Origin: a virus
Length of the DNA: 24,462 bases
Direction: 5' to 3' (one strand)
Virus record (IMG/VR): IMGVR_UViG_3300042937_000098
Span: 1 to 24,462 of that record
The notes below the pieces were generated by a model. It had not been told where the DNA came from. It saw only the letters and a program-made list of their open reading frames with translations, and did not search any database. The stretch's first letter is position 1. Each line of letters opens with the position of its first letter. The translations under genes and the position numbers were made by a program. Below are positions 1,093 to 15,779 of the stretch, piece by piece.

Positions 1093-1596
1093 TTAGGCAA
1101 CTTCCATAAACTTCTCGATTGCCTTGATGATTACTGAGTCAAAGGTTTTGATATTCTTTTCTGTCATAGACAAACGCTTCTTAATGATATGCTCCACATA
1201 AGAGGGCATTTCCATTTCATTAAGATCAACTGAGGGGATACGCGGCGTTTCCTCCGCTTCCTGAGACTTAGATAACTTGTTCGCTTGGGCAATGGCCTTC
1301 TTCCATGCGGCGTGGTCCGAGTAGTTGTGTCCTACGGCAAGTTGAATGGCCTTCCGTGACATAGACCGATAGTTAGCAAGCGTCTTAGGCATCGGATTGC
1401 CGTCAAGACCCGCGTCACGGTCACTCCAGTTGTTAGTGCGAGCGATGCTTGCCCACACCATATTCACATCGGTACCGTTGCTCTCAGCTTCCCTAAGAGC
1501 ATGAAGCAACTTGTCAGATAGTTGGATCAGGCCATTGCCTTGAGCAACGTAAAGCTTGGCAATTTCATTAGCAGCCTTGATATAGTTAATAGACAT
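1093..1596 (-). CDS. Hypothetical protein, 167 aa, first leftward gene
   Basis: The product begins MSINYIKAANEIAKLYVAQG and ends IEKFMEVA. GAAAGAAAG-type purines precede the ATG at 1596. It is predicted mostly helical and soluble. A central stretch (PMPKTLANYRSMSRKAIQLA) is basic and could be part of a DNA-binding helical domain, but I do not recognise a family. It is monocistronic: an unusual leader with nested inverted repeats stands upstream (1624-1682) and a terminator downstream. Being the first gene left of the control region suggests an early or regulatory protein; this is inference from position only. Confidence 0.85.
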   Translation of the reverse strand: MSINYIKAANEIAKLYVAQGNGLIQLSDKLLHALREAESNGTDVNMVWASIARTNNWSDRDAGLDGNPMPKTLANYRSMSRKAIQLAVGHNYSDHAAWKKAIAQANKLSKSQEAEETPRIPSVDLNEMEMPSYVEHIIKKRLSMTEKNIKTFDSVIIKAIEKFMEVA

Positions 1597-1623: not shown

Positions 1624-1682
1624 GGACTAGAAGCTAGTCCCTCAAATCCCACGTGGGAAAATCTGAGACTTGAGGGACTAGC
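1624..1682 (-). promoter_or_regulatory. Nested inverted repeats, attenuator-like leader of the 167-aa gene
   Basis: A perfect 13-bp inverted repeat, GCTAGTCCCTCAA (1633-1645) and TTGAGGGACTAGC (1670-1682), encloses the palindrome at 1647-1661. The inner part of the left arm (CTAGTCC, 1634-1640) can instead pair with GGACTAG at 1624-1630 across a 3-nt loop. The two hairpins are mutually exclusive. In the leftward direction this ends about 28 nt before the start codon. The repeats are directly visible; a switching role is inferred, and no clear promoter was found upstream. Confidence 0.5.
1647..1661. promoter_or_regulatory. Palindromic candidate operator, copy 2
   Basis: TCCCACGTGGGAAAA contains a perfect 12-bp palindrome (TCCCACGTGGGA) and differs by one base from the site at 992-1006. 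It lies about 51 nt upstream of the first leftward gene, in the loop of a 13-bp inverted repeat. Two copies upstream of the two leftward units suggest a shared regulator. Confidence 0.55.
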
Positions 1683-1700: not shown

Positions 1701-1922
1701 GTAAGGCGTTATCCGGTTTAGGTTGGCTATGGTCTATCGCTCATTTGCTAAGTGTCAGCTCTCTGGCTTCTACCACTCGCAAACCCATAATAGTCACAGG
1801 TCAACCCTCCCCTTTCGGAGCGAGTAAGGCGTTAACGATTTGAAACAGCAAATAGAACCTTCAGAATAGGCGAAAGCTGGAAATTGCGTCTAGTACCAGT
1901 TGGTCGGAAACCGTAGTACCAG
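1701..1922. repeat. Two short direct-repeat pairs in non-coding DNA
   Basis: GTAAGGCGTTA occurs at 1701-1711 and 1824-1834. TAGTACCAG occurs at 1891-1899 and 1914-1922, 23 bp apart. The surrounding DNA is richer in GC than the motif array to its right and shows no tRNA fold that holds up. It could contain a small RNA or protein-binding sites; neither is shown. Confidence 0.4.
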
Positions 1923-1953
1923 ATAGTTAAAGAGAGTATAGGTGTACCTGTAA

Positions 1954-2201
1954 TAGGACAGTGATGCTGACATAATGTATAATCCCAAGATAGGAATAAG
2001 ATCAATAGGATAAGAAGGATAGGATAGTATTCCTGGTGTATGACATATGCATATAGTCCTAGCGTTATACCCGTAGGAACATAACCCTATATGGATTTAA
2101 TCCTAGTGTCCTACCATGTGAATATATTCCTAGGGCTTCCCCTTGGGAATAAAGTCCTAGCATAGGGTTAAACGGGTGGGCGGGGGTTTGACTACCTCCT
2201 A
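1954..2201. repeat. TAGGA/TCCTA motif array (iteron-like), orientation switch near 2050
   Basis: The pentamer occurs as TAGGA at 1954, 1991, 2006, 2020 and 2074 and as TCCTA at 2057, 2101, 2109, 2128, 2155 and 2197: eleven sites in 248 bp, where about half a site is expected by chance. Sites at 2020, 2074, 2101, 2128 and 2155 fall on an exact 27-bp register. Right-hand copies share an AT-rich lead and a trailing G (for example ATATAGTCCTAG). The perfect palindrome ATATGCATAT (2045-2054) lies where orientation changes. This resembles a replication-origin iteron set or a cooperative regulator array. Confidence 0.6.
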
Positions 2202-2264: not shown

Positions 2265-2322
2265 AATACCCTGTCAAGATAAATATATTATTAAATTTCT
2301 GTAATAATAGAGAAAGGGTATT
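2265..2322. other. AT-rich segment flanked by inverted repeat (possible unwinding element)
   Basis: AATACCC (2265-2271) and GGGTATT (2316-2322) flank about 44 bp that are mainly A and T with only a handful of G or C. Its position beside the motif array is what a DNA-unwinding element next to iterons would look like. The right arm runs into the -35 box of the rightward promoter, so it could equally be a promoter UP-type element. Confidence 0.35.
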
Positions 2323-2350
2323 GACTCCGGGGGCGGGGATATGTTATAAT
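2321..2350 (+). promoter_or_regulatory. Sigma70-type promoter for the rightward structural genes
   Basis: TTGACT (2321-2326) and a perfect TATAAT (2345-2350) are separated by 18 bp, with an AT-rich stretch directly upstream. The spacer is strikingly G-rich (CCGGGGGCGGGG). It faces the tail-fibre genes and would give a ~195-nt leader. It points to host RNA polymerase reading at least this part of the structural block. Confidence 0.75.
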
Positions 2351-2551: not shown

Positions 2552-3019
2552 ATGCCCCTCTATGCTATATCAGGTTCTATTAATGTAGTCGTAAACGATA
2601 CCTCAGTAAGCAGGGGTCTTTACGCTGCATCTGGGGCTATGCGAGTTACTCTTGTTCCCGGTACCTCTTATACTGGTCTTTACGCACCTGATGGATCAGT
2701 TAACGTCTGCATTGACAGTACTGGTCTCGGTAGGTACCATCCGTCTGGAGCCTTACGTGGGGTAACCCAGAATAGCCTTACGACTTATACTGGTCTCTAC
2801 GCTCCTACCGGGGCTACGAATATGTTTGGTCTCCTAACCTCTTCTGAGCTTCTCATCTATAACGACTGGGTTGGCATGAGCATTGACTTTATAAGTAATG
2901 ACTACACGATTAAGAATGCTACAGGAGCGGAACAGTTGACTGGTCTTACACCGAATACAATTGAGTCTAGTGTCTTTGCGACAGACTTTACTGATAACAC
3001 TTACTCTTTGAGGTATTAA
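2552..3019 (+). CDS. Tail-fibre-associated repeat protein, 155 aa
   Basis: First gene of the rightward block, starting MPLYAISGSINVVVNDTSVS after an AAAAGG ribosome site. It is built from about five repeats of a [GR]-[LY]-Y-x-x-[SD]-G-x-x-x-V unit (YAISGSINV, YAASGAMRV, YAPDGSVNV, YHPSGALRG, YAPTGATNM) spaced roughly 20-30 residues, followed by a ~60-residue unique C-terminus. Short repeats of this kind occur in virion fibre or appendage proteins of alphaproteobacterial phages. It lies 5 nt before the large fibre gene. A structural or adhesin role is inferred from repeats and position; the exact function is unknown. Confidence 0.75.
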   Translation: MPLYAISGSINVVVNDTSVSRGLYAASGAMRVTLVPGTSYTGLYAPDGSVNVCIDSTGLGRYHPSGALRGVTQNSLTTYTGLYAPTGATNMFGLLTSSELLIYNDWVGMSIDFISNDYTIKNATGAEQLTGLTPNTIESSVFATDFTDNTYSLRY

Positions 3020-3024
3020 TAAGA

Positions 3025-5169
3025 ATGGCAACAGTACAGACAGGCATCGCTACAGACCTAATCACGTTCTCGCGCACGTCGAATGCCACCCTCACGGACA
3101 GCGACGGCAAGATCAAGTGGGCTCCCCATAACCTCCTGCTGGCGTCTGAGCAGTTTGATGCGGCGAGTTGGACGAAGGCGGCGAGTTGCACTATTTCCGC
3201 AAATAACGCCGTAGCTCCAAACGGAACGACTACAGCAGACACTGTGACGCTTGGTGCGGGTACTGCGGCTAAAGTGTTGTACCAGACAATAGCGTCTACA
3301 GCCGCTCAGTGCGTCATTGGGGTTTATGTTAAGATAGCAAGTGGGACTGTAAGATACATTCAGTTGCTGCAGAATATTGATGTTCAATCTTATGCGAATT
3401 TTGACATCACTGGTAACGCTGTAGGGACCAAGGGAACCAATACTCTCAGCAGCGCAATTACAAACGTAGGCTCTGATTGGTACTATATCACGGCGACATT
3501 TACTGGAGCAGGAAGCGCCGCGTGGGTACAGGTTGTTGACGGCACAAGTTCTGCATACAGTTCTGCTACATCTGCAACTGGCACGTTCCACCTCTGGGGC
3601 GCACACCTCTACCGCAGCGACCTTGGCGGCATGAAGGCGAACACCTCCGCGTACCCGATGTACAACCCGACTACGCCGAAGAATTTGATTGGGTTTACCC
3701 AAGATTTCAGCAATGCGGCTTGGGTTGCGGGTAATTCGCTCGGTGGGGCTAACGGTATAAAGACACCAAACTTTGGTATTGCCCCTGATGGTACACAAAC
3801 CGCTACACGCATCCAGCTTGATGTTTCTGCCGCTAGCGTAGGCGGTCAGAGCCAGATTTACCAGTCATACACAGCGGTCATTAACACCCCATATACACTT
3901 TCCGCTTGGGTCAAAACAAACGATGGCTCCACAAAAACAATTATGGGGTTCCGAATTCCGGGTGGCACCCCGGCTACGCTTACAGTAACTGGCGAGTGGA
4001 CGCGCCTGAGTTCTGTCAAAGTACCAACTGGGACGGCGGAATTCTTCCAACTTCTTCTTGTCAAAGGCACGACCTCTGACACTGCTGATTTGCTTGTCTG
4101 GCGTCCGCAGGCTTCCGACAGCGCGTCCCTCGACACCTACGCCCCCAACTACGGAGCCGCACCGACTGCCGCTGCGTATTACGGGCCGCGACTGGACTAC
4201 GATCCGGTGACGCTGGCGGCTAAGGGGCTGCTGGTGGAGGAGCAGAGGACGAACCTCATGACCTATAGCGCCGACATCTCGCAGTGGACAGTGCAGGCAG
4301 GCGTTACTGTTACTGTAAATCAGGCTGTAGCGCCTGACGGAACAATGACTGCTGACTTGATTGTGGGGAATGGCACGGCAGGTGTCATTTCTCCCGCTGC
4401 TGCGGTTTCTGGAGCGTCGAACAATACCAAATCTATTTGGCTTCGAGCGGTTACAGGGACGACGAGTGTCATTTTAAAGGACGCCAATACAACGGTTGGC
4501 ACCGTTACATGCAACCTTACAACATCATGGCAACGGTTCTCGCTTTCTGAAACTCAGTCTGCAGGTCTTGCTGGCATATGGATTGATGACGTTGCATCTT
4601 CTGGTATCTACGCATGGGGCGGTCAGATTGAGCAAGGCTCCTTCGCCACCAGCTACATCCCGACCGGGGCCACGACCGCTGGAGCCACCCGCAATGCTGA
4701 TGTTGCCAGCGTATCAACGCAAGCGTTCCCGTATAGTGCGACTGAGGGGACGTTGGTGGCTAATGGTAGCCCGTTACCCAGTGTAGCGAATACTACTAAT
4801 GTGATTGCTGAACTAGGTGACGGAGGAGCCACTAACCTCTTTGAAATGTACCGTGTTTCAGGAACTACAAATGGCGCTCTTTACGTAGCGAGTGGTGGTG
4901 TTGGGTCTACTATAACGATAAGCAATGCGTTCCCTGCTAATGCTGCATCAAAGTTTGGCGGCGTCTATAAAGTGAACGACTTCCAAGCGGCGGCTAATGG
5001 AACACTTGGAACACCCGTCACAAGCGGCGCGGTCCCAACGGCTGCATCTAATCTGTACATTGGAAAGTATGGTGGCGGTACCACTACTCAATGGAACGGC
5101 CACATCCGCCAGATCACGTATCTGCCGCGAAGGGTCACCAACGCCGAACTTCAGACGAGGACTGCATAA
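3025..5169 (+). CDS. Large modular tail fibre / receptor-binding protein, 714 aa
   Basis: Three similar beta-sandwich, carbohydrate-binding-like modules are seen. Each opens with a N-L-(L/I/M)-x-x-(S/T)-x-(Q/D)-(F/I)-x-x-x-W type motif near residues 36, 220 and 410 and closes with a W-rich motif (WGAHL near 190, WRPQA near 358, WGGQIEQ near 531). The linker GPRLDYDPVTLAAKG before module 3 recurs in alphaproteobacterial phage fibre proteins. Residues ~560-714 form a concanavalin-like lectin domain (ending WNGHIRQITYLPRRV). The likely role is binding host surface glycans. Its GC content is much higher than flanking DNA, up to about 65% in places, indicating a horizontally acquired mosaic gene. 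The stop overlaps the next start (TAATG). Confidence 0.85.
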   Translation: MATVQTGIATDLITFSRTSNATLTDSDGKIKWAPHNLLLASEQFDAASWTKAASCTISANNAVAPNGTTTADTVTLGAGTAAKVLYQTIASTAAQCVIGVYVKIASGTVRYIQLLQNIDVQSYANFDITGNAVGTKGTNTLSSAITNVGSDWYYITATFTGAGSAAWVQVVDGTSSAYSSATSATGTFHLWGAHLYRSDLGGMKANTSAYPMYNPTTPKNLIGFTQDFSNAAWVAGNSLGGANGIKTPNFGIAPDGTQTATRIQLDVSAASVGGQSQIYQSYTAVINTPYTLSAWVKTNDGSTKTIMGFRIPGGTPATLTVTGEWTRLSSVKVPTGTAEFFQLLLVKGTTSDTADLLVWRPQASDSASLDTYAPNYGAAPTAAAYYGPRLDYDPVTLAAKGLLVEEQRTNLMTYSADISQWTVQAGVTVTVNQAVAPDGTMTADLIVGNGTAGVISPAAAVSGASNNTKSIWLRAVTGTTSVILKDANTTVGTVTCNLTTSWQRFSLSETQSAGLAGIWIDDVASSGIYAWGGQIEQGSFATSYIPTGATTAGATRNADVASVSTQAFPYSATEGTLVANGSPLPSVANTTNVIAELGDGGATNLFEMYRVSGTTNGALYVASGGVGSTITISNAFPANAASKFGGVYKVNDFQAAANGTLGTPVTSGAVPTAASNLYIGKYGGGTTTQWNGHIRQITYLPRRVTNAELQTRTA

Positions 5170-15347: not shown

Positions 15348-15779
15348 ATGGCTAAGAAATGTACAAAGTGTCTTGAAGTTAAAGACGAAAGTATGTACCC
15401 AATAGCCAGTACTAAACAAGGATACCTTAGAGGAGAGTGTTTAGACTGTAAAAGAGAAATAACAAACCAAAAAGCATACTCTAAAAATTTAACTTCTAAA
15501 CAAAAACTTTCTGAATATGGGTGTTGTGTATGTGGTATTAAGAGACATGAAGTCTTGGAGGTCCATCATTTACACAGAGATTATAAGAGATACGGTAGAA
15601 GTCAAAGTGCTGTAGCTAATCTACAAGACTTAGAAAAAGGTACTGCTGTTGTTCTTTGTGCCAATGACCATAGTCTTTTTCATAGTCATTTCGGTGGTAA
15701 AAATGCTTCCTTTCCACCTCAAACAAAAGAATCAGTTATTTCAATTTGTCTCTTAGAAAGAGCAAAAGGAGGAATATAA
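15348..15779 (+). CDS. HNH endonuclease, probable free-standing homing enzyme, 143 aa
   Basis: N-terminal CxxC pairs (C5/C8 and C31/C34) form a zinc ribbon found before many phage HNH nucleases. The core shows CCVCG (59-63), LEVHHLHRDYK (H73/H74 as catalytic candidates) and VVLCANDHSLFHSHF (C104, N106, H108, H112), the HNH beta-beta-alpha-metal signature. The gene is clearly AT-rich (about 33% GC in a sample line against about 55% in the capsid gene). It interrupts the usual head-to-tail gene order and has its own promoter. This is the picture of a mobile homing endonuclease gene; target cutting is not shown here. Its last codons form the ribosome site of the next gene. Confidence 0.88.
   Translation: MAKKCTKCLEVKDESMYPIASTKQGYLRGECLDCKREITNQKAYSKNLTSKQKLSEYGCCVCGIKRHEVLEVHHLHRDYKRYGRSQSAVANLQDLEKGTAVVLCANDHSLFHSHFGGKNASFPPQTKESVISICLLERAKGGI

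Follow-up and report, generated by a model that had tools for sequence, protein, structure and literature searches.

A repeated 16-bp dyad near the predicted terminus of a cobavirus-like phage genome: a putative operator array

A dense cluster of TAGGA/TCCTA pentamers in the 24,462-bp virus record IMGVR_UViG_3300042937_000098 (a fragment, hereafter the window) was found to consist of half-sites of a 16-bp two-fold-symmetric dyad, TAGGA-N6-TCCTA (consensus TRGGAATATATTCCYA). Six such dyads, together with loose half-sites, lie in the divergent gap between the early and late genes, and we give a probability of about 45% to the reading that they form an operator array for a dimeric DNA-binding protein of the phage, serving as a switch on early transcription. 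A loose pentamer cluster is in this way turned into a defined, testable putative binding site at the predicted end of a phage genome. The phages concerned are poorly studied aquatic ones, seemingly without an RNA polymerase of their own, and the dyad array offers a handle on how their early and late genes are regulated and their genome ends marked.

Half-sites of a 16-bp dyad

The first-pass annotation had counted eleven pentamers in the 248 bp from 1954 to 2201, and the count is exact: TAGGA starts on the plus strand at 1954, 1991, 2006, 2020 and 2074, and TCCTA, representing minus-strand copies, starts at 2057, 2101, 2109, 2128, 2155 and 2197. At the window-wide pentamer rate about 0.7 would be expected by chance in a stretch of this length, and dinucleotide shuffles of the region gave a mean of 1.4 and a maximum of 6 (0 of 1000 reached 11). 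The window as a whole shows no overall enrichment (58 pentamers observed versus 66 expected), and outside the control region no 248-bp stretch of it holds more than three. The enrichment is therefore local; equal density elsewhere had been named beforehand as the result that would count against the array, which instead is uniquely dense in the window.

The nature of the repeat unit emerged from relatives, which were collected via both neighbouring genes and a conserved promoter string. In ten of their control regions TAGGA is followed by TCCTA eleven times at a spacing of 6 bp and not once at any other spacing between 0 and 10 bp; when one mismatch per arm was allowed, 32 pairs were found at 6 bp versus 1–9 at the other spacings in that range. 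It follows from this fixed spacing that the unit is a 16-bp dyad. A matrix trained on the sites of the relatives only, with the window excluded, returned as the six best sites of the window those starting at 2020, 2046, 2074, 2090, 2117 and 2144, with scores of 10.4–21.1, the seventh site scoring 5.2. Since single scores of up to 17 also arise in shuffled whole windows, the weaker dyads rest on their clustering and not on score alone. In order, the sites are dyad 1 (TAGGATAGTATTCCTG, 2020–2035, score 14.4), dyad 2 (TATGCATATAGTCCTA, 2046–2061, 15.6), which has a degenerate left arm and overlaps the palindrome ATATGCATAT, dyad 3 (TAGGAACATAACCCTA, 2074–2089, 11.3), dyad 4 (TATGGATTTAATCCTA, 2090–2105, 10.4), dyad 5 (TGTGAATATATTCCTA, 2117–2132, 19.2) and dyad 6 (TGGGAATAAAGTCCTA, 2144–2159, 21.1). 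The remaining pentamers lack a good partner arm; that is, there are three unpaired plus-strand TAGGA half-sites at 1954–2010 (starting at 1954, 1991 and 2006) and two further half-sites at 2109 and 2197.

This anatomy changes how the layout of the pentamers is to be read. Five copies (2020, 2074, 2101, 2128 and 2155) do sit on multiples of 27 bp, as had been annotated, and the palindrome ATATGCATAT is present at 2045–2054, but the five pentamers combine arms from different dyads. The steps from dyad to dyad are 26, 28, 16, 27 and 27 bp in the window and 19, 20, 24–29, 31, 37 and 38 bp in the relatives, so that a 27-bp register is a local pattern (the 27-bp steps of dyads 4–6 recur in L008) and no rule of design. 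Likewise, the strand positions behind the proposed switch of orientation are real, but the switch itself is only apparent: it arises mostly because the intact arm differs from one dyad to the next, the other arms being degenerate half-sites.

Lineage and conservation of the dyads

The major capsid protein of the window is 54–60% identical to its counterparts in SIO1, P12053L, ICBM1-2 and CRP-4/5, and its terminase (TerL) gene shares 70% DNA identity with that of CRP-4; on these identities the window is placed, by sequence, as a new podovirus-type relative of the Cobavirinae (Zobellviridae; SIO1, CRP-4, ICBM1). Besides these two homologies it has the cobavirus gene layout, and in the close relative G001 the corresponding leftward arm carries the early gene set (primase-helicase, PolA, exonuclease and others), with functions assigned through similarity to annotated cobaviruses. 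In the window the leftward genes at 1–1596 make up the early side and the rightward genes from 2552 onwards the structural side, and the array sits within the gap at 1597–2551. The open reading frame adjoining the gap on the early side (1093–1596, minus strand, 167 aa) has a product that is 94–99% identical in L002, L008 and L036 and 51% identical in L014, with no counterpart found in the other dyad phages; the structural arm begins with an open reading frame at 2552–3019 (plus strand), also found in relatives. No terminase relatives were found in bacterial genomes, and hence there is no host lead; a search of the window for RNA families and tRNAs returned none.

Some features of these records lie apart from the array. 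A large likely tail-fibre gene at 3025–5169 has a GC content of about 0.5–0.6, above its surroundings, which suggests exchange, and an HNH endonuclease gene (15348–15779) is inserted downstream of the capsid gene in the structural arm. In the G001 record (L036/L037; 46,964 bp) about 3 kb at one end is repeated at the other apart from small differences, and the record is probably a strain-mixed assembly of a genome of roughly 43.9 kb.

The dyads are kept in the relatives that keep the flanking genes, as had been predicted for a real element. Every relative with this control region contains one or more good dyads, which invariably lie on the side of a G/C-rich box that faces the early genes, and one dyad position, with which dyad 5 of the window aligns, is kept in 10/10 aligned sequences. 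The number of sites varies from a near-perfect row of five in 130 bp (L025/L035) to one good dyad each in L013, L014 and L026. Across seven records a relaxed dyad pattern was found in the control region only, with the exception of a one-mismatch match in a record without this region; what is conserved is thus a set of two-fold-symmetric sites with a fixed arm spacing, confined to the control region. Exact-pattern matches in L020, L021 and L023 fell in coding DNA of unrelated contigs and were discarded.

The sister phages, on the other hand, do not share the motif: by matrix, no TAGGA dyads above background were found in CRP-4, CRP-5, SIO1, ICBM1 or P12053L. Other short motifs are over-represented in the corresponding gap of some of them, namely TGTTAC in both P12053L and SIO1, and TTAAAG in CRP-4; these enrichments are moderate, and the motifs were chosen after the fact. 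The presence of different motifs at this position in sister lineages suggests that the protein binding the dyads is probably encoded by the phage. Binding sites of a host regulator exploited by the phage would be compatible with a binder that is so far only a candidate and with the occurrence of such operator geometry in bacteria too; the different motifs of the sister phages speak against this, though their hosts differ as well, and we regard it as improbable.

The predicted genome end

The array also overlaps what is predicted to be the end of the virion DNA, which the first-pass annotation had missed. ICBM1 has a 172-bp direct terminal repeat within the corresponding early/late gap. According to excerpts of PMC6775973, this repeat was determined from PacBio reads and extended by the authors to other cobaviruses, terminal repeats in ICBM phages measure 159–173 bp, and cobavirus terminal repeats share a conserved G+C-rich end; the same excerpts describe no repeat array of the dyad type for these repeats. 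The ICBM1 repeat ends at a base whose aligned counterpart in the window is position 2213; combined with the known lengths, this gives a predicted direct terminal repeat at about 2041–2213, its right edge being placed by homology and its left edge by length only. This predicted repeat takes in five of the six dyads. Its G/C-rich box (2171–2210) is the counterpart of the G+C-rich end of the cobavirus repeats and is followed, at and just outside the predicted repeat end, by a terminus box (2211–2248) that matches SIO1 (84% across 37 bp, E = 3e-5; a single hit arose in ten runs on shuffled sequence) and is conserved in ten relatives. The sequence immediately beyond the late-side end of the ICBM1 repeat is homologous to this box, and the gap thus contains a terminus sequence homologous to that of cobaviruses. 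Within the box, 2222–2244 forms an imperfect palindrome (AATTTTCT..AGAAATT), both arms of which seemingly vary together in L009.

A block of about 150 bp around 2100–2252 is common to four phages with 93–100% identity. On its left the window and L033 share one flank and L008 and L002 another, and on its right the window and L002 are set against L033 and L008, so that all four combinations occur, a pattern that fits a linear genome with one flank at each end. This mosaic is no proof of a genome end, because further mosaic junctions occur in the gap near 1694 and 1890. Contig ends were set aside as a clue to the genome end, being too few and confounded by repeats.

These observations bear on a second explanation, namely that a phage protein on the dyads aids duplication of the terminal repeat, concatemer cutting or packaging. 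In its favour, part of the array falls within the predicted repeat and the terminus box directly adjoins it, the flank combinations around the shared block point the same way, and T7 has CCTAAAG repeats both within its terminal repeat and in the flanks on the inner side. Yet in the dyad-phage group the repeat is predicted rather than mapped, most dyads fall to the early side of the terminus instead of occurring on either side of it, T7 has 7-mers that run in one direction and form no dyads, and the additional junctions indicate that recombination is not confined to the terminus. We rank a role at the terminus second, as less likely than the operator array.

A putative switch on early transcription

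The favoured reading, an operator array, takes its cue from the geometry of the sites. The midpoints of the two arms are separated by 11 bp, or roughly a full helical turn, with an AT-rich centre between them, from which we infer a dimeric binder with a helix-turn-helix or similar fold. With the dyads as its multiple operators, such a protein would probably switch early transcription, which would run leftward from near the genome end, and might shut this transcription down or modulate it once enough protein has built up. The best candidate binder, weakly supported, is a 98-aa early helix-turn-helix (HTH) protein whose gene lies outside the window (L036:8300-8596). It is found in every dyad-phage record whose stretch spans both features, although this co-occurrence links protein and dyads inside one lineage only. 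Its first 50 residues are confidently predicted to form three helices, the remainder being of low confidence; the GcrA DNA-binding domain is among its weak fold hits, and no match was found among the named phages (50,697 phage records).

Several findings sit uneasily with an operator array. Six dyads and further half-sites spread across 200 bp exceed the needs of a simple repressor, three relatives get by with a single good dyad, and no early-direction promoter conserved across relatives was found under the dyads. A sigma-70 promoter as an explanation of the repeats was rejected: the minus-strand candidate at 2149–2121 occurs in the shared block but is missing from the other relatives. On the late side there is a near-consensus sigma-70-type promoter at 2321–2350 (plus strand; TTGACT-18-TATAAT with an extended -10, 11/12 match), which is conserved in all relatives and lies about 160 bp from the dyad array. 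In L008, L009 and others, a second symmetric element corresponding to 2321–2385, CATATG-N10-CATATG followed by ACCGGGG, overlaps this late promoter and is perhaps another operator. The early side of the array has two TAGTACCAG copies 23 bp apart (1891–1927, plus strand), with similar pairs in L013, L028 and L034. The early leader contains, immediately ahead of the first leftward gene, a long, very stable hairpin (1633–1682, minus strand; about 20 bp, fold z -4.4) with the inner palindrome CCCACGTGGG; L008 and L002 have a diverged version with the stem kept, and a fragment of the hairpin, TTTCCCACATGGGAAAA, recurs near 990.

The first-pass annotation had offered a replication origin with initiator iterons or a cooperative regulator array. 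The regulator fits the dyad anatomy; the origin gained no specific support. An origin in which the dyads are initiator iterons beside an AT-rich stretch, as in lambda, would agree with the presence of multiple dyads in a non-coding gap and with AT-rich DNA at about 2280–2320, but the latter lies beyond the G/C box. Similarly, the GC skew does shift over the divergent region, from negative values to values near zero or slightly positive, as a check of its sign had been meant to reveal, but the change tracks the switch in gene orientation. Origin priming of the T7 type, which relies on a phage polymerase, may not be open to these phages, since the parts of their sequence that were read contained no recognisable RNA polymerase gene, and this too would leave room for an iteron origin. 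Against it stand the single good dyad each of L013, L014 and L026, the variable spacing and the lack of any recognised initiator-like gene in the gene sets examined, and we consider an origin unlikely.

The operator, terminus, origin and host-regulator readings are not fully exclusive, and one bound protein could do several jobs. A broader and rather unlikely proposal is that a single dyad-bound protein in the terminal repeat links early transcription from the genome end to concatemer processing, each cobavirus lineage having a motif and protein of its own.

Among known systems, the terminal repeats of the cobaviruses ICBM1-3 and SIO1 are closest in setting, with the same early/late gap and gene layout and a homologous G/C box and terminus box, but they carry other short motifs, e.g. 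TGTTAC. In T7, the short motif CCTAAAG recurs in many copies across the terminal repeat and the sequence flanking it on the inside; these end repeats (SRL/SRR) are suspected to act in terminal-repeat duplication, concatemer cutting or packaging. The window resembles T7 in having many copies of a short motif at a predicted genome end, and differs in that its repeats are dyads, mostly on the early side, rather than one-directional 7-mers, and in that T7 encodes its own RNA polymerase. At the lambda origin, O dimers bind repeated imperfect dyads, and a row of several imperfect dyads in non-coding DNA is likewise seen here; unlike lambda, the dyad phages have no recognised initiator gene, as few as one dyad in some relatives and no fixed spacing. 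The operators of the phage 434 and lambda repressors (434 type, ACAA-N6-TTGT) share with the dyad a 6-bp centre and two arms about one helical turn apart, whereas the array of the window has more sites, uneven spacing and no identified promoter that it overlaps. Dyad operators and terminal short-repeat arrays are both known kinds of element; this dyad motif and its place are apparently new to the literature searched.
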